Shown here: positions 1 to 35,717 of the stretch, one piece after another
Numbering within the stretch: the stretch's first letter is position 1
How the letters are laid out: each line of letters opens with the position of its first letter
DNA from: an uncultured Lachnospiraceae bacterium
Lineage (GTDB): Bacteria > Bacillota > Clostridia > Lachnospirales > Lachnospiraceae
Reading direction: 5' to 3'
Assembly: GCA_947626365.1 (NCBI GenBank)
Contig: CANQRW010000033.1
Coordinates: forward strand, 1-36,918
Length of the DNA stretch: 36,918 nucleotides
Notes under the pieces: model-generated
Told to the model about the DNA's origin: nothing
Database searches by the model: none
The model's input: only the letters and a program-made list of their open reading frames with translations
Program-made: the position numbers and the translations under genes

Positions 1-731
1 TTGTATTCCTCAGAAAGACGGATAAATCCCAAATCATAATTTCCTTTGAGCAGTTCCTGGGCCAGTTTGCCCTGAGGAGCAGGAAGCTGTACGCTAAAAT
101 TTGTAACCGCTGCCCCAATGGTATGATACATATCGGAGCGGATACAATTATCCAGGGCGTTGCGGCTCAGACCTTTATCAATCGTACGCTGAATATAGAA
201 TAGAGCTTCTTCAACGCTTTTACATTTTGTTATGATCAAAATGTGATGTCCCCACGGAACATAGCTAAAGAAAAGCGGAAAAGGAATTTCTCCAACAGGC
301 TGTTGGAGTTTTTCTTCCTGCAGCGGTGTTCCAATCTGCTGAAGCCGGGGAAAATTTGCCCGCGTAATTTCTCCGACAAGCTGTTGGATTTTTTCATCGC
401 ACAGCGAAGCCGAATAGAATTGATACCATTTTTTCATGTACCAGAGATTCGAGGTACTGAATCCCTTAACATTGGGAAATTCTGCCTGCAGATCAAGACT
501 GACCTGTTCAACGATTCCCTTCCCCCATTTTTCTTCAGCACGTCTGATGACGAGATCCCGGCCGAGCCGCCAATTAAAAAGAAGCTGTTCGGAATTCACT
601 TTGACAGCGGCTTTTAGCTGCGCATTGCGAAAACGCTGTTTGATTTCATACAGCCACTGAACATACTCGCTGTCAAGGTTTACATTCTGGGAACGTACAA
701 CCGTAAGAGTTTCATTTGACGGATTCGTCAT
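1..731 (-). CDS. DUF1016 (YhcG-like) PDDEXK nuclease family protein, 3' end outside window
   Basis: The frame is open from an ATG at 731 to the window edge, about 243 residues with no stop. The translation resembles the DUF1016 N-terminal domain: an early YVQWLYEIKQRFRNAQLKAA helix, then LLFNWRLGRDLV, and later PWGHHILIITK followed by YIQRTIDKGLSRNAL. In this family a PDDEXK nuclease fold follows, which would lie beyond the left edge. The start has an AAGGAGG at 741-747, 9 nt upstream, and the gene overlaps the 3' end of hsdS by 20 nt, so it is translated from the R-M transcript. Members often sit inside type I R-M loci, but their biochemical role is poorly defined. The region between the two DUF1016 blocks contains a doubled LQQxVGEI segment. 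The family call is confident; nuclease activity cannot be judged from this part. Confidence 0.8.
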   Translation of the reverse strand, partial: MTNPSNETLTVVRSQNVNLDSEYVQWLYEIKQRFRNAQLKAAVKVNSEQLLFNWRLGRDLVIRRAEEKWGKGIVEQVSLDLQAEFPNVKGFSTSNLWYMKKWYQFYSASLCDEKIQQLVGEITRANFPRLQQIGTPLQEEKLQQPVGEIPFPLFFSYVPWGHHILIITKCKSVEEALFYIQRTIDKGLSRNALDNCIRSDMYHTIGAAVTNFSVQLPAPQGKLAQELLKGNYDLGFIRLSEEY

Positions 732-2004
732 CAGAGCACACCTCCTTCTTACCTGTGACATACTCGAAAATGAGGGACTTTTTGTATTCCTCGATTGTAG
801 CAAGCTGCTCGCGCTTTTGGGTAATGATTTCGTCAATATCGGCACATTTGGCGTCGAGATAATCAGCTATAGCTTGTTGCTCGCTAATGGGAGGATACGG
901 GATATATGTGTCCCCGAAATCTGCAAAGGCAATATTTTTCCCATCTCTGAGCGTCATAGTGTAAGAGTTCATCTTTTCTATGAATCCGCTCTCTTTGAAA
1001 AGATATTTGTAATACCCATCCGCTATATCAACTATAGGGTAGAATACCTGATAGGCCGGAGAAACTACACCCTCATACTCTGAATACTCAAAGCCTCCCT
1101 GAAAACTACGCAGACTAATGCAATAGTCACCCTTATGTATCGTCTTTAAGAGCATCAGATCTGCCTTTTCGTTGAGCTTGACTGCACTCATTCCGGAAAG
1201 CTCTTCATAAAGTGATTGCGGAATAACACCATATTTTTGCGTCGGAGATAATAGTTGCAGCTCTATTATATTTCCACGCAGATTTCGTTGCTCAAACAGA
1301 TATTTTCCTTTTTTCATTTCCCACGATGAAGGAATTGCTCCGCCCCATTCCTCACCGCTGTCCTTCATCTCCGCATTGGGATTCAACCCCTTTGTGACTG
1401 CCTCGGTGATGACGGAACGCTTGTATTGTTCAAGCGTGTCAGTCTGCGCCTGAATATCAGCAGTCAGCGCGTCAATTTCAGCACACTTAGCGTCGAGAAA
1501 AGAGGCAATAAGGCACTGCTCGGAAAGAGGCGGCTCAATTAAACGCAGTTTTGATAATTCTCCGTAATTCAAGCTCTGCCTAACACCATTTCCCATATTG
1601 TATAATACTTTTACGACGTCGTAGGCGTACAATAAATAGTAAAAATAATTTGAATTGATTTGCTTTTTTGGACGAATAGTAACATACGCCGATGTAATTA
1701 TGCCTTGCTCTTTGACTAAGCCTGTTCTTAGACTTCTTTTATCATTTTGAAGATCAGTCAGCCTGAGAACAATGTCACCCTCTGATACAATATTGTATCC
1801 ATTAAAGTTTTTAGGAAGTAGTCCCTCAGAAGTATTTATATCTTTTCGGACTATTTTACCATAGCTCAGAGAAAGCAAATTAGATTCGTCTCCAGAATAA
1901 TTTCTTTGCTTGTGTTCGGTGAAATAGTAATATACTGGGTGACTATTCCACGACATAGGAACGCTTCCAATCCACTCAATCCCGCTATCTTTCATCTCCC
2001 GCAT
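712..2004 (-). CDS. hsdS: Type I restriction-modification system specificity subunit S
   Basis: A 430-residue HsdS, a usual length for a two-TRD subunit. The two halves repeat the same plan: each opens with MKDSGxEWxGxxPxSW (residues 4-19 and 213-228), followed by a target recognition domain, and closes with a conserved helix region, SEQxxIAxxLDAKCAxID (161-178 and 374-391), running into a coiled-coil spacer (about 180-205 and 392-415). Each TRD reads one half of a bipartite DNA target; the spacer helices set the gap and bind two HsdM. TRD1 (about 1500-1950) is visibly richer in A+T than hsdM, as expected when recognition domains are exchanged between strains. The start lies 11 nt after hsdM with a GAGGTG ribosome site, so the two are co-translated. 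The recognition sequence cannot be derived from the sequence alone. Confidence 0.95.
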   Translation of the reverse strand: MREMKDSGIEWIGSVPMSWNSHPVYYYFTEHKQRNYSGDESNLLSLSYGKIVRKDINTSEGLLPKNFNGYNIVSEGDIVLRLTDLQNDKRSLRTGLVKEQGIITSAYVTIRPKKQINSNYFYYLLYAYDVVKVLYNMGNGVRQSLNYGELSKLRLIEPPLSEQCLIASFLDAKCAEIDALTADIQAQTDTLEQYKRSVITEAVTKGLNPNAEMKDSGEEWGGAIPSSWEMKKGKYLFEQRNLRGNIIELQLLSPTQKYGVIPQSLYEELSGMSAVKLNEKADLMLLKTIHKGDYCISLRSFQGGFEYSEYEGVVSPAYQVFYPIVDIADGYYKYLFKESGFIEKMNSYTMTLRDGKNIAFADFGDTYIPYPPISEQQAIADYLDAKCADIDEIITQKREQLATIEEYKKSLIFEYVTGKKEVCSDDESVK

Positions 2005-2015
2005 CGTCCGTCACC

Positions 2016-4118
2016 TCACTCAAACAGCTTCGCCACCCGTTCAGACACAGAAAGCTCCAGCTCCATAAACCGGGCTTCCAGCTCCTCGCTGGGCGTGGGC
2101 TGCTGGTACTTGTAAAAATAGCGGGTAAACGGTATCTCCGCACCGGTCTTGATCACAGGCTTTTTGGTGGCAAGATTTTCCTCGAAAAACGCCTTGGCAT
2201 CCGGAATATGCGGCAGCACCTCCCGCGCCATGTATGTATCGATGTCCTCCTCGAATTTAACGATTTCGGTGTCCTTCGTCTCCTTGTCATAGATGATCTC
2301 GCCCTTGTGGTCACGCTGAATTTCTGCCTGTTTGTCCATTACCGAAAGCCCGTCCGCGATGCGCTCTAACAGCTTTTTGTCAGCAGTAACCTGTGCCAAC
2401 ACATTTGTCAAAATAGGCATAAAGGCATTGGGAGAGTAGAAGATTTCCTCCGATACGGCAGCCTCCAACGCGACGACGATAGCGTCATACACGGGCTTGT
2501 TGTTTATGTAGCTCTCCAGCTTCTTCTTATTCTTGCCGGTCAGCTCCTCGGCGTTTTCCAGCTCGGCGACCTTTGCTTCATCATAGAGCGCCGACAGGCT
2601 CCCCTTGGAGAGCATGGCAACAATGCGCTCCTGTGTAATGGCATAGTTTCGCTGGAGGGGTTGCATTACTGTGTATTCGCGGTAGATAAACTCCTCATTT
2701 TTATAAATTTTGCACATCTCATTTTCCTCGAAGTCAGCGTAAAGTCTTGTGATGATTGAGCGATCCCCCGGGGAAATTTCGTTGCGCTTGTTACCCAGCG
2801 CCTTGCGGAGCTTGTGATAAATCTGGCTGGCGTCGATAAGCTGAACCTTGCCTTTGCGCTCCTGACGCTTGTTCTTCGACAGCACCCAAATGTAGGTGGC
2901 GATACCTGTGTTGTAGAAAAGATCTGTGGGCAGGGCGATGATGGCTTCAATCAGATCCTGCTCCAGCATCCAGCGGCGTATCTGGCTTTCGCCGGATGCC
3001 GTGCCGCCATTAAAGAGCGGGCTGCCGTTTTCGATAATGGCGCAGCGGCCGAGGCAGTCATCCATTTTGTTGATTGCGGATTGCAGGAACAGCATCTGCA
3101 TATCGCCAGAACCAGGCAGTCCTGCACCCCAGCGACCATCAAAACCTTTTTTATACTCTTCGTTGACCGCTTCCTCTATGCCCTCGGGCGCATCCTTGCC
3201 GCCCCATGCCTGTCCAAACGGCGGATTTTCCAAAACAAACCGCATCTTCGTGTTTCTAAAACAGTCTGCTTTCATGGTGTCCTGATAACAGATGTTCTCC
3301 TCGTTCTGCACCTTGATAAGCATTTCCGCAAGGCACATGGCATAAGATTCCGGATTAATCTCCTGCCCGAACAGCCGCACGTCTGCGGTGGGATTGTACC
3401 GCTTGATGAAGTTGTATCCCGTGGAGAGCATACCGCCCGTGCCGCACGCCTGATCCAGTATGGTGATAACTTTCCCATCGTCGAAGATATCGTCGCAACC
3501 TTCGGCCAGTAAAATGTTGACCATGAGCTTGATGATGTCCCGCCCTGTGTAGTGGTCGCCAGCCTCAGCATTTTCAGAAAATTTACGGATCAGTTCCTCG
3601 AAAATATATCCCATCTTCACGTTGTCGATGGTGCGCGGGTCGAGATCAATCTCGGAGAACGCCTTGACAACAGAAAGCAGCCGATTGTTCTTGTCCATCT
3701 TGTCGATCTGCTTATAAAAATCAAGACCACGCTCATTGGAGATAAGGATCTCCTGCACGTTAGGGGAGAAACCTTGAATATAACTTTTGAAATTCGCGGC
3801 AAGATGATCCGGGTCATTCACCAACTCAGCCAAGTCATAGTGACTTGTATTGTAAAGATGAAAACCGGAGATTCGATACATCGCCTTAGCGGGGAAAGTC
3901 GGGTTCTTTTCATACTGCTCCACAACTGCTTTTTTCGTGGGAGCAAGGGCGCACTCGAAGCGCCGGATGATCGTCATGGGGATGATAACGTCCTTATATT
4001 TGTCGCTCTGATACGTTCCGCGCAGCTTGTTTGCGATAGACCAGATAAAGTTTACTTCTGTGGTAACATCCACCGGGGAATCGTCCCACATCGCGTCAAT
4101 GATTGTTCTGTCAGCCAT
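2016..4118 (-). CDS. hsdM: Type I restriction-modification system DNA methyltransferase subunit M
   Basis: A 700-residue N6-adenine methyltransferase subunit. It has an HsdM N-terminal helical domain (about 20-150), an SAM-binding motif I DQACGTGG (223-230) and the catalytic motif IV NPPF (298-301), which defines the gamma-class N6-adenine enzymes. The C-terminal 200 residues are helical and probably contact HsdS; the length is at the long end for the family. Two HsdM with one HsdS form the modification enzyme. The gene follows the small HTH gene by 6 nt and precedes hsdS by 11 nt, so the three form one transcript. No hsdR is visible; it would have to lie to the left of the window, beyond the DUF1016 gene. 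Confidence 0.96.
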   Translation of the reverse strand: MADRTIIDAMWDDSPVDVTTEVNFIWSIANKLRGTYQSDKYKDVIIPMTIIRRFECALAPTKKAVVEQYEKNPTFPAKAMYRISGFHLYNTSHYDLAELVNDPDHLAANFKSYIQGFSPNVQEILISNERGLDFYKQIDKMDKNNRLLSVVKAFSEIDLDPRTIDNVKMGYIFEELIRKFSENAEAGDHYTGRDIIKLMVNILLAEGCDDIFDDGKVITILDQACGTGGMLSTGYNFIKRYNPTADVRLFGQEINPESYAMCLAEMLIKVQNEENICYQDTMKADCFRNTKMRFVLENPPFGQAWGGKDAPEGIEEAVNEEYKKGFDGRWGAGLPGSGDMQMLFLQSAINKMDDCLGRCAIIENGSPLFNGGTASGESQIRRWMLEQDLIEAIIALPTDLFYNTGIATYIWVLSKNKRQERKGKVQLIDASQIYHKLRKALGNKRNEISPGDRSIITRLYADFEENEMCKIYKNEEFIYREYTVMQPLQRNYAITQERIVAMLSKGSLSALYDEAKVAELENAEELTGKNKKKLESYINNKPVYDAIVVALEAAVSEEIFYSPNAFMPILTNVLAQVTADKKLLERIADGLSVMDKQAEIQRDHKGEIIYDKETKDTEIVKFEEDIDTYMAREVLPHIPDAKAFFEENLATKKPVIKTGAEIPFTRYFYKYQQPTPSEELEARFMELELSVSERVAKLFE

Positions 4119-30512: not shown

Positions 30513-31010
30513 TCACTCCTTCACGCAGGGAATTCCCTTTTTCCTGAAAAAATTCTCCGCCGCCTCGTCCCAGGCTCTTTCCAGAGATCTGTCCAGCGTA
30601 AAGAAATCCACAGACGTCCCGGTAACGCAGTACAGATTTCCTTCCTCATACCGGACATTCAGATACAGGCCTCTCACCTGTTCCGCCTTCCACGGCAGGC
30701 CTCCGTCTGCCAGAAAGCGCTCCACGCCCGCCGGCGGCAGCTGAAATACGATATGAAAGCTTTCCGGCAGCTTTCTTCCCCTGATCAGGGAAAAACAGAA
30801 GGACTTCAGGGCGCTCCACGCCGCGTATTCCTCAATCTGTTCCGTCTCCAGCTCCTGCTCCGTATAGTAACCTTGCCTTGTACGACCGTCAACTGAAAAG
30901 GTACTAAAGGTTACAAAGACCGCTTCCCTCACCAGAAACCGGTCGAACATCCCGCCGATAAACAGTTCTGACGTAAATTTTTTCTGATCTTCTATCTTAA
31001 GGGCAATCAT
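30513..31010 (-). CDS. DUF5721 family protein
   Basis: A 165-residue protein beginning MIALKIEDQKKFTSELFIGGMFDRF, a start typical of DUF5721 in Lachnospiraceae. It has no signal peptide or membrane helix and no known catalytic motif; the family has no assigned function. The ATG at 31010 has GGAGGG before it; an in-frame extension to 31109 overlaps the 0A-box palindrome and is unlikely to be translated. It is first in an operon with the metallophosphoesterase and divergent from the orphan Spo0A-like gene. Confidence 0.75.
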   Translation of the reverse strand: MIALKIEDQKKFTSELFIGGMFDRFLVREAVFVTFSTFSVDGRTRQGYYTEQELETEQIEEYAAWSALKSFCFSLIRGRKLPESFHIVFQLPPAGVERFLADGGLPWKAEQVRGLYLNVRYEEGNLYCVTGTSVDFFTLDRSLERAWDEAAENFFRKKGIPCVKE

Positions 31011-31067: not shown

Positions 31068-31086
31068 TTCGACAATATTTGTCGAA
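31068..31086. promoter_or_regulatory. Head-to-head pair of 0A boxes in the divergent promoter region
   Basis: TTCGACAA-TAT-TTGTCGAA is an 8-bp-arm inverted repeat made of two TGTCGAA boxes, the Spo0A binding sequence. It lies between the DUF5721 gene and the orphan Spo0A-domain gene, 74 nt before the latter. Confidence 0.75.
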
Positions 31087-31113
31087 CATTTCCCGTTGCT
31101 TTCACACATGCAA

Positions 31114-31149
31114 CCTTTTACGATTAATTATGAGAAACTGTGTAAAAGG
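31114..31149 (+). promoter_or_regulatory. Possible ribosome-site hairpin before the orphan Spo0A-like gene
   Basis: CCTTTTAC (31114-31121) is the exact complement of GTAAAAGG (31142-31149), which contains the Shine-Dalgarno bases for the ATG at 31160. A 20-nt loop separates the arms. Confidence 0.4.
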
Positions 31150-31159
31150 GGCGCAATAG

Positions 31160-31657
31160 ATGGATTATGAGAACACGATCAAAAACATCTTAAGGCAGCT
31201 GGGCGTAGGCCAGAGTTATCAGGGGTACGAATATGTTATCTACGGGACCATCCTTGTACTGCAGGATAAGAAACGCCTGGAATTCATCACGAAATCTCTA
31301 TATCCTGACATCGCCAGCAGATACCACACCTCCTGGAGATGCGTGGAGCGGAATATCCGCACTGTCATCAATGTAGCCTGGAAGGAGGGAAATCCTGATT
31401 TTCTCTTTGAAGTCTTTGGAGACAAGTCCGCGCAGAAACCCCGCAACGCGCAATTTTTCGAGCTGATGTACGAATACATGTCCAGTCTCTACGGCGAGAC
31501 TGCCGCCACCTTACAGGATTTTGATCTCAGCGGCTGTCCGGACAACTGCATCTGCCTGGAAACCGGCCGTCCCTGCAAGCGGCTGCTGATTCTCCAGCAG
31601 CAGATTGAAGAGCTGAAACGCAGATATGAAACCCCGGAACTCCCGGAATCGTTCTAA
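31160..31657 (+). CDS. Stand-alone Spo0A C-terminal-domain protein with cysteine-rich tail
   Basis: A 165-residue protein. Residues 5-115 match the Spo0A effector domain: NTIKNILRQLGVGQSYQGYEY aligns with the Spo0[46 protein letters not shown] with [29 protein letters not shown], and FGDKSAQKPRNAQFFELM with the [21 protein letters not shown] end. There is no receiver domain. A tail with four cysteines, C126-x3-C130-x-C132-x6-C139, and a short amphipathic helix (about 141-157) follows, absent from Spo0A. It may be a metal- or redox-sensing DNA-binding protein that reads 0A-like boxes; this is inference. It is divergent from DUF5721, and its stop interlocks with that of the convergent lipoprotein gene. 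Confidence 0.85.
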   Translation: MDYENTIKNILRQLGVGQSYQGYEYVIYGTILVLQDKKRLEFITKSLYPDIASRYHTSWRCVERNIRTVINVAWKEGNPDFLFEVFGDKSAQKPRNAQFFELMYEYMSSLYGETAATLQDFDLSGCPDNCICLETGRPCKRLLILQQQIEELKRRYETPELPESF

Positions 31658-32619
31658 TATCCTGAATTCCCGAACTCTTCCTGATACAAAGCAAAGAAAT
31701 TGCCTGTCGTGGACTCATCATCCGCGGAAAAATGAATGCTGTCCCATATCCCCTCAGGAAATTCAACCTGCTTCTCCGTCTGGAACTGGGAATAAATCTG
31801 ATGAAAGACCTGGTTCTTGCGCTCCTCGTAGATCTGATCCTTTCTCTGCTGAGTGGCTTCCATATCGTAATCGCTGACACACTGGAAAATATAGAACCAT
31901 CCGTCCCCGCCCGGCGTCACCGGGCTGATCTCGCCCGGTGCCATGGCAAAAGCCACATCTTCCGCCGCTTTGGGAAGCTGTCCTCTGCCCAGCTCAAGTT
32001 CAATCTCTTCTCCCTCGCTGGTCTCTTTCGCCACGGAAAGAAAATCGCTGCCTTCCTGGCTGACCCGGCGGTAAACCGCCTCCGCCGCCTCCGGGCTGGA
32101 TATCTGAATCATGCGGACCGAGATCACCTTGGCTTCGCTGTCGCTGACCTCCAGATCCACATTCTTCGTCAGCTCACCTACCACCTTATTGGCAATATAA
32201 TACTCCTGATACATCAGCTGCACATCGTCCTTGGTGATCCCCATGGAGGAAATGTCCTTGTCTGTCAGTCCGCTGTAATATCGTTCCGTGAGAGAACGGA
32301 GCCTGTCCTTCTCCGCGCTGGTCAGGGAAATCCCCTGATCCGCCGCCAGCAGGTTCATAGTCTTCAGGTTAATAAGAAACCCCTTCACCTGCTCCAGCAG
32401 GTACGTCTCGAAGGATTCTCCGTTTTCCATGGTTACGGACCAGATCCGGTCTGTATAGGCCTGCTGATACCGGTTCCTCTCCGTCATTGCCACAATCATG
32501 ACCTGAGCCCTGGTATAGACGCTGTCCTCCTCCCCGTCTTTCGGGGAAAGAATGGATCCGCAGCCTCCCAGACACAAAACAAGGCAGAGGCAGACGACCG
32601 CTGTTATCCATTTCCTCAT
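31654..32619 (-). CDS. PrsA/SurA-like peptidyl-prolyl isomerase lipoprotein
   Basis: A 321-residue exported lipoprotein: signal peptide MRKWITAVVCLCLVLCLGGC with lipobox LGGC (C20). A SurA_N-like helical region (about 35-160) is followed by a parvulin-type rotamase region (about 165-265: VRMIQISSPEAAEAVYRRV, ELGRGQLPKAAEDVAFAMAPGEISPVTPGGDGWFYIF), then a helical end. It should help fold proteins outside the membrane. The ATG at 32619 has GGGAGA upstream. Its 3' end overlaps the orphan Spo0A-like gene by 4 bp (interlocked stops). A terminator separates it from the gene upstream, so it has its own promoter. Confidence 0.82.
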   Translation of the reverse strand: MRKWITAVVCLCLVLCLGGCGSILSPKDGEEDSVYTRAQVMIVAMTERNRYQQAYTDRIWSVTMENGESFETYLLEQVKGFLINLKTMNLLAADQGISLTSAEKDRLRSLTERYYSGLTDKDISSMGITKDDVQLMYQEYYIANKVVGELTKNVDLEVSDSEAKVISVRMIQISSPEAAEAVYRRVSQEGSDFLSVAKETSEGEEIELELGRGQLPKAAEDVAFAMAPGEISPVTPGGDGWFYIFQCVSDYDMEATQQRKDQIYEERKNQVFHQIYSQFQTEKQVEFPEGIWDSIHFSADDESTTGNFFALYQEEFGNSGY

Positions 32620-34755: not shown

Positions 34756-35565
34756 TCACAAGCGCTTGTAATCCAGTCGAATTTTATCGGACAGCAGCGC
34801 GATGAATTCCGAGTTGGTAGGCTTTCCCTTGCCGTTGCTGACCGTATAGCCGAATATCTCGTTGATCGTATCCATCTTGCCGCGGCTCCACGCCACCTCT
34901 ATCGCATGGCGGATGGCCCTCTCCACACGGCTGGGCGTCGTCTGATGCTTCTTGGCTATGTTGGGATAAAGCACTTTGGTCACAGATGCCAGCATCTCCT
35001 GATCCATCACCGAGGACGTGATGGCATCCCTGAGATACTGGTATCCCTTAATATGCGCCGGCACCCCGATTTCATGCAAAATCTGCGTCACATCATTTTC
35101 CAGGTTCTGTTCTATATATTCAATCTGGCTTTCGTAAGGCTTTATCTTTCTGGCGCGGTTCAGGCCTCCGTTCCTCGGCCTGGAAGAATAACCAGCCAGG
35201 CGGCGGATCTTGTCCAGCACCATCTCCTTCTTGAAAGGCTTCATAATAAAGTAGTTCGCGCCAAGTCCAAAAGCATCTTCCGTCACATTCTCACTCCCTG
35301 CCGCCGAGACCATGATAAATGCCGGATTCTTATCCATATGGCCTTCATTTTTCACTTTCTCCATAACGGAAAGGCCGTCTATCCCCGGTAAAATCACATC
35401 CAGAAGAACGATATCCGGTTTTGTGCTTACAATCATGTCATAGGCTTCATCTCCGCTGCCTGCCCGTCCTACCACATGAAGGTCATCCTCTGTTTCCAGC
35501 ATGGTGTTCAAATAGTCTAATGTCTTCGGATTATCTTCTGCAATCGCAATATTCAGGGTTGTCAT
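34756..35565 (-). CDS. spo0A: Sporulation master regulator Spo0A
   Basis: A 269-residue response regulator of normal length. The receiver domain (1-125) has the acidic pair near D11, phospho-acceptor D56 in [12 protein letters not shown]87 and K109 (MKPFKK). The effector domain (about 150-269) carries the DNA-recognition helix [18 protein letters not shown]. When phosphorylated it starts sporulation by binding TGTCGAA boxes. AAGGAGG precedes the ATG at 35565; the in-frame extension to 35625 would start in the promoter. spoIVB, its usual upstream neighbour, is not present: a DUF362 gene lies upstream instead. Three 0A boxes stand in its own upstream region. Confidence 0.97.
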
Positions 35566-35643: not shown

Positions 35644-35717
35644 TTCGACATTAGTAAGTTGATATATAGCCCTACAAAATATGGCAAAATTCGACACAAA
35701 ACTGCGGATTTTCGACA
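35644..35717 (-). promoter_or_regulatory. Three 0A boxes upstream of spo0A
   Basis: TGTCGAA (minus strand) occurs at 35644-35650, 35690-35696 and 35711-35717, all in the same orientation and upstream of the -35. This fits autoregulation by phosphorylated Spo0A. Confidence 0.75.

Follow-up and report, generated by a model that had tools for sequence, protein, structure and literature searches.

The 36,918-nucleotide stretch of DNA from an uncultured Lachnospiraceae bacterium analyzed here (the window) contains a gene which encodes a free-standing Spo0A-type effector-domain protein without a receiver. This protein, the orphan, ends in a tail composed of four cysteine residues and a predicted helix, and belongs to a group of similarly tailed proteins. 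On the basis of sequence comparisons, it has been proposed that the orphan is a reader of 0A boxes which acts back on its own gene and modulates Spo0A, and that its tail would gate it in response to metal or redox state, a reading to which we give about an even chance. Lachnospiraceae are rich in gut spore-formers, and in the usual account of how sporulation begins, it is phosphorylated Spo0A which reads the 0A boxes. If the proposal is correct, the host would encode a self-feeding competitor for these boxes, switched by a non-phosphate cue and thus acting as a second input into sporulation.

An effector domain without a receiver

31160–31657, + strand: the orphan, a Spo0A effector domain lacking a receiver and ending in a cysteine tail (165 residues, coding sequence with stop)
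31178–31477, + strand: Spo0A_C effector domain, residues 7–106 (Pfam PF08769; fold match to 1LQ1 and 1FC3; found at the same place in the own-genome search)
31334–31387, + strand: predicted helix 59–76 with the recognition sequence RCVERNIRT (AlphaFold2 secondary structure; invariant residues in 10 orphans)
34756–35565, − strand: full-length spo0A, receiver and effector domain (TIGR02875, 308.4 bits, passing the required 200)

The open reading frame starts with an ATG immediately 3′ of an in-frame TAG, and its product matches the Pfam family Spo0A_C (PF08769) over profile positions 1–103 of 104, with 107 bits against a cut-off of 25 (E 5.8e-31). No receiver (Response_reg) match was found in the orphan by the Pfam scan and, as only its effector part aligns, it remains below the cut-off of the Spo0A equivalog TIGR02875, with 75.1 bits where 200 are needed. 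The lack of a receiver, which a sequence-only reading of this DNA had claimed, is thus borne out, and the true spo0A gene which it had placed 3 kb away was found 3.1 kb from the orphan gene. A truncated spo0A pseudogene has been considered and rejected, the frame being open and dN low.

AlphaFold2 models of six sequences are confident over the effector domain, with block means of 87–97 for residues 1–110. In Foldseek searches, the orphan fold is closest to 1LQ1 and 1FC3 (TM by target 0.84–0.94), and no structure beyond these two was retrieved under E 0.001. The same sequence-only reading had proposed that the effector domain is kept together with its recognition-helix pattern, for which it quoted the strings of both the orphan and Spo0A correctly. 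Alignment supports this claim for the fold and for the VER-IR recognition core, V62, E63, R64, I66, R67, T68 and V69 being invariant in 10 of 10 aligned orphans, but not for the flanks of this core, where Spo0A residues S210, R211, A215 and H218, in what we take to be their numbering, are replaced by R, C, N and T in the window orphan. Since these flanks differ from Spo0A, the exact DNA specificity of the orphan may differ too. In Spo0A, E213, R214 and R217 presumably make specific DNA contacts, while residues 227–240 plus A257, D258 and L260 are assumed here to be important in activation by RNA polymerase. The orphan positions aligned to this second set are largely changed (alignment read by eye), so that the orphan would lean towards a competitor or a repressor.

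A clade of tailed orphans in Lachnospiraceae

In a tree of 114 effector domains, which has few columns and long branches (above all that of L021 from G288) and whose bootstrap had yet to converge fully, the tailed orphans form one 10-row group with a support of 99/98. It contains the window orphan, those of L001 (MAG Lapin-001, apparently the same contig as in G309) and L036 (G315), and those of G305, G253 (two), G255 (three) and G288. An eleventh tailed orphan, in G333 (L174), was found after the tree had been made and is not part of it. A recent duplication of the neighbouring spo0A has been rejected as the origin of the gene, as the tree places the orphan among the tailed proteins and at a large distance from the Spo0A rows of its genus.

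The genome to which the window belongs (G000; 3.5 Mb, 144 contigs, 98% complete) has just two Spo0A_C matches, the orphan and spo0A, and contains a SpoIVA gene, which makes a spore programme likely. Among the 26 genomes of the genus, this genome, G309 and G315 carry the four-cysteine protein (3/26) and G305 a diverged orphan at another place (1/26), i.e., an orphan is present in four; 21 genomes have a single spo0A-kind match and one has none. The tailed form occurs in one of the two genomes of the genus of G253, and G255 is the one genome of its genus in the sample. At the family level, 198 of 299 genomes match the window protein at 1e-5, spo0A itself being counted, and many have short extra copies. 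The count of tailed orphans covers the loci whose tails were read, and the 47 of 397 genomes which match the orphan profile may include more. A receiver-less effector domain is not unusual in itself, being common in Lachnospiraceae and known from phages.

Several other arrangements of the domain have been observed in the family. In seven Lachnospiraceae genera (L072, L074, L078, L082, L084, L085 and L088), the best Spo0A match (159–161 bits) is a receiver-less protein of ~170–180 residues, whose effector domain begins at position 1501 in gene orientation after a short N-terminal stretch (e.g., MEQL...KEFQIMITVP); these proteins form one supported group in the tree. Four loci, L019, L023, L025 and L032 (G151, G259, G070 and G106), have two Spo0A effector domains ~0.9 kb apart on one strand; these are tandem spo0A paralogues, whose second copies form a group of their own in the tree. 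In G085, whose genome is a single contig (C1), nine places match Spo0A_C, and short orphans account for several of them.

The cysteine-helix tail

31502–31654, + strand: C-terminal extension past the end of Spo0A, residues 115–165, 51 residues (alignments; no Pfam match)
31535–31576, + strand: cysteine motif C126-x3-C130-x-C132-x6-C139 (from the sequence; kept in L001 and L036)
31577–31630, + strand: predicted helix 140–157 after the cysteines (AlphaFold2, block pLDDT about 70)

The orphan has cysteine residues at positions 61, 126, 130, 132 and 139, the last four with exactly the spacing which had been read at first sight, and the helix expected after them is predicted by AlphaFold2 at residues 140–157; confidence is low in the linker, with residues 114–126 below 50. 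No Pfam family matches the window tail, and the best hit among PDB sequences, a squash trypsin inhibitor at E 1.1, was taken as chance. The tail has also been tried as a separate domain and rejected: with profile A2 in 299 family genomes, only the window tail was strong (3.5e-28), the remaining matches, in 52 further genomes, having E values from 3.8e-4 up to 0.1, and no Spo0A protein was found around the three best of them (L097, L098 and L099).

All four tail cysteines, together with the unchanged block NCICLETGRPC, are present in the close orthologues L001 and L036, a recurrence which, judging from the alignment, appears to be more than chance. The three proteins are 72–75% identical, and at this level four kept cysteines would be modest evidence taken alone. 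As dS was saturated in most comparisons, only dN was used to compare the parts of the protein, in the pairs window–L001, window–L036 and L001–L036, in this order. For the cysteine segment (residues 125–155, borders chosen with the alignment already in view), dN is 0.18, 0.09 and 0.23, compared to 0.13, 0.15 and 0.13 for the DNA-binding domain. The values are higher in the 12-codon linker (0.48, 0.39 and 0.26) and in the tail end of 6–10 codons (0.62, 1.03 and 0.81). The dN of the cysteine segment is 0.6 to 1.7 times that of the DNA-binding domain and higher in two of the three pairs, and in the L001–L036 pair this segment is hardly slower than the linker (0.23 vs. 0.26). Collectively, these values suggest that the cysteine-helix segment is constrained nearly as tightly as the DNA-binding domain.

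Tail cysteines are present in 8 of the 11 tailed orphans read. Beyond residue 112, there are two in G305, two in each of the G253 copies, three in G288, none in the three copies of G255 and, by a count made by eye, five in G333 (L174). Recurrence of the four-cysteine tail in homologues thus holds for L001 and L036, but the motif is confined to three of the 26 genus genomes, and the other tailed relatives carry 0, 2, 3 or 5 tail cysteines with spacings differing from that of the window orphan. Since the three G255 tailed orphans are devoid of tail cysteine, a tail of this clade can do without these residues. In G305, a 135-residue CxxC protein (L060, 9970–10377, − strand) has a C-terminal stretch, VEWMHQTIWDQLRK, which by eye resembles the tail end IKWMHDLIWNLINK of the G253 orphans (L057, 6762–7274), a likeness which hints at a shared tail module.

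It is quite possible, at somewhat short of an even chance, that the tail is a structural zinc knuckle followed by a dimerization helix and that it senses nothing, in which case the orphan would bind 0A boxes constitutively and be active in proportion to its abundance. Consistent with this view, a helix is modelled after the cysteines, the G255 relatives keep long cysteine-free tails which look helical by eye and, according to the available part of the source, the isolated effector domain of Bacillus subtilis Spo0A binds legitimate targets (PMC3485338). Nothing speaks directly against it, and sensing is the one step in which it departs from the explanation that we prefer. In the latter, the cysteine-helix tail would serve as a small element, of metal (Zn) or redox type, controlling subunit pairing; this gate is the weakest step of the proposal.

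0A boxes and geometry of the putative promoter

31068–31074, − strand: 0A box, upstream half of an inverted pair (conserved in L001, L036 and L060)
31080–31086, + strand: 0A box, downstream half of this pair (TTTTACGAT follows after exactly 29 bp)
31096–31101, + strand: putative −35 element TTGCTT, 17 bp before TACGAT (read from the sequence; TTGC conserved in alignment A4)
31116–31124, + strand: TTTTACGAT, conserved element including the putative −10 TACGAT (alignment and pattern searches; candidate promoter element)
35644–35717, − strand: three 0A cores (35644, 35690 and 35711) upstream of spo0A (core search)

Upstream of the orphan gene, positions 31068–31086 form a perfect inverted pair, TTCGACA-N5-TGTCGAA, which is the only perfect copy in its own genome, one further place having one mismatch. 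All 14 core bases are identical in the window, L001 and L036, and both cores are perfect also in L060, which is a different locus. In 9 of the 11 tailed orphans, unrelated loci included, a box-like core is followed after exactly 29 bp by a TTTTACGAT-type element. When these 11 orphans were searched for the two parts with the gap between them left free at 20–39 bp, the 29-bp gap gave the best match in 8 of 11 and tied with a 39-bp match in L174, while L054 and L055 (both G255) had no core-plus-TTTTACGAT-type match within this range. The pattern scored 16 in the window (16 of 16 bases), L001, L036, L060 and L057, 15 in L174, 14 in L006 and L056, and 13 in L021. Among 500 random 250-mers with free spacing, a score of 14 was attained by one and a score of 13 by 19 others; the weaker patterns thus weigh mainly by the shared 29-bp gap. 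In the own genome, box-N29-TTTTACGAT has 22 places, once without mismatch and the other 21 at three mismatches; a reversed control pattern has 30, so the three-mismatch places are not in excess.

This property extends beyond the tailed clade. Of 74 orphans, 28 have an exact 0A core in the 200 bp preceding the gene, whereas among 1083 native tiles of 200 bp cut from these loci, 21 contain one; the orphan loci are a selection from match lists which does not list all orphans, and as they are related and not independent events, the Fisher value of 2e-23 overstates independence. Three of 77 upstream regions had been dropped (spo0A itself, a fragment and one cut by a contig end), and shuffles for the 77 gave a mean of 2.0 and, among 200, a largest value of 6. 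By class, the exact core precedes 7 of 10 tailed orphans, 19 of 48 other short ones and 2 of 16 short ones which branch on the Spo0A side, and it is lacking upstream of 46 of the 74. Across the window, the single core is not enriched (8 places vs. 4.6 expected, with 10 of 100 shuffles reaching 8). On these counts, 0A cores are over-represented before receiver-less orphan genes.

The box pair may be read by Spo0A~P only. The gene would then be a plain member of the Spo0A regulon, switched on by Spo0A~P through the box pair, with the orphan acting elsewhere, a possibility that we consider rather unlikely. It agrees with the three 0A cores upstream of spo0A itself, with the differing residues which flank the recognition core in the orphan and in Spo0A, and with the location of the box just upstream of the −35-like element, which is an activator's position. 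However, box-N29-TTTTACGAT and the perfect palindrome are each single in the genome and accompany the gene at different loci and in different genera, which fits a dedicated, self-read site better.

Genomic site and probable mobile origin

30513–31010, − strand: divergent DUF5721 gene, neighbour in the relatives checked (PF18988; synteny)
31654–32619, − strand: convergent PrsA-like rotamase lipoprotein gene, conserved neighbour (PF13145, 31.2 bits vs. 27; synteny)

The orphan has the same neighbours in L001, which ends inside DUF5721, and in G315 (L059) as in the window. In five of five sister loci (L061–L065), the place between the PrsA-like gene and DUF5721 is taken by an M18 aminopeptidase-kind gene, an assignment which comes from a Pfam run on the L061 gene (12379–13695), those of L062–L065 being in the same slot. 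The own genome contains only a 27% relative of this gene, elsewhere, and no 0A core was found between DUF5721 and the M18-type gene in the sister loci. Of the seven other tailed loci read, three (L054, L056 and L057) have a serine recombinase gene at most 1 kb away from the orphan, as a raw count, and no mobile genes were apparent around the window orphan from the reading of open reading frames and Pfam on seven proteins. Judging from these recombinases, from the integrase next to the homologue in phage Aster and from the published phage homologues, the orphan gene has probably been acquired from a mobile pool of receiver-less Spo0A genes and then fixed at a conserved chromosomal site. Elsewhere in the window (712–4118, − strand), open reading frames resemble, by eye, specificity and methylase subunits of type I restriction-modification systems.

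Among viral contigs, the window protein has no match and the orphan alignment matches three loci, none of them tailed. The window protein matches 16 records of a phage collection, and four records match in a plasmid collection; PADLOC gave no match among three orphans. Three of the phage records (H1, H2 and H4; L213, L211 and L212) are unverified faecal phage scaffolds encoding full-length Spo0A with its receiver, and are thus probably bacterial DNA. Another, H16, is Faecalibacterium phage Aster (PP479941.1; L214, 1794–2312), in which a hypothetical protein, as annotated, proved to be a weak homologue without receiver (27.6% identity, E 5e-6), encoded beside the integrase; a TTCGACA core is located 100 bp before the matched stretch, yet inside the gene as annotated.

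That the gene is a mere leftover of a mobile element, of a phage-carried kind which perhaps steers host dormancy, with no present role in its host, appears quite improbable: phage homologues without receiver (described in the accessible part of PMC10294663), recombinases beside three of seven other tailed loci, the patchy presence in the genus (4/26) and the M18-type gene at the orphan site of all five sister loci speak for it, but the gene is intact in three species with a low dN in both the domain and the cysteine segment, its promoter is conserved and, by the reading of open reading frames and Pfam on seven proteins, its surroundings in the window are free of apparent mobile genes.

Proposed role of the orphan

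In the preferred reading, the orphan most likely binds 0A boxes, the inverted pair before its own gene being the first of them, and would compete with or modulate Spo0A at common boxes, by which the transition state or the entry into sporulation would be adjusted. Having no receiver, it would not be switchable there by phosphorylation, and its output would be set by expression from a promoter whose 0A-type box lies 29 bp upstream of TTTTACGAT, and by the cysteine-helix tail. A broader proposal, which we regard as unlikely, is that a mobile family of receiver-less Spo0A proteins, with a self-read promoter and a cysteine-gated tail, moves between Lachnospiraceae on recombinase elements and that, in the present lineage, it has been domesticated next to spo0A, giving the 0A network a second input under metal or redox control. 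The excess of 0A cores before orphan genes makes it testable whether bare effector domains steer dormancy in phages and their hosts.

Comparison with known systems

Similarly to Spo0A (TIGR02875; 1FC3 and 1LQ1), the orphan has the effector fold, the VER-IR core and 0A boxes at its gene. In contrast to Spo0A, it lacks the receiver, scores 75 instead of 200 bits, has changed residues around the core and carries a 51-residue cysteine-helix tail. Within TGTCGAA, Spo0A makes specific contacts on G2, C4 and G5, according to the part of the source at hand (PMC3485338).

A receiver-less Spo0A is not new, since such proteins have been published for gut phages and are common in Lachnospiraceae. In the available text of the phage study, 29 virome sequences align to the effector domain (Schwartz et al., 2023, PMC10294663), and the mobile elements of gut Firmicutes are described as showing an enrichment for PF08769 (PMC6907783). 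Like the gut-phage homologues, the orphan consists of an effector domain as its only Spo0A part and is likely free of phosphorelay control. The phage proteins are truncated, with a cysteine tail and own-promoter boxes unmentioned in the accessible part of PMC10294663, whereas the window gene occupies a conserved chromosomal locus. The PHROG family phrog_24603 (function unknown, 111 positions) represents the same effector domain, matching orphan residues 4–109 with E 7e-26 as well as six of six other orphans scanned, and its profile stops at the start of the orphan tail.

The short Spo0A_C orphans of Lachnospiraceae (105–159 residues, most 108–131) are also receiver-less and have, in part, an upstream 0A core. 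They differ in standing outside the tailed clade in the tree and in being nearly all without a long tail, the exception being L136, whose extension of ~45 residues is devoid of cysteines. In the literature covered, which was seen in part and mostly leaves out subscription papers, cysteine-tailed receiver-less Spo0A proteins, the tailed clade and 0A boxes before orphan genes were not found. What is new here is the clade of tailed orphans, the slowly evolving cysteine-helix segment, the shared box-29 bp-TTTTACGAT geometry and the excess of 0A cores before orphan genes.
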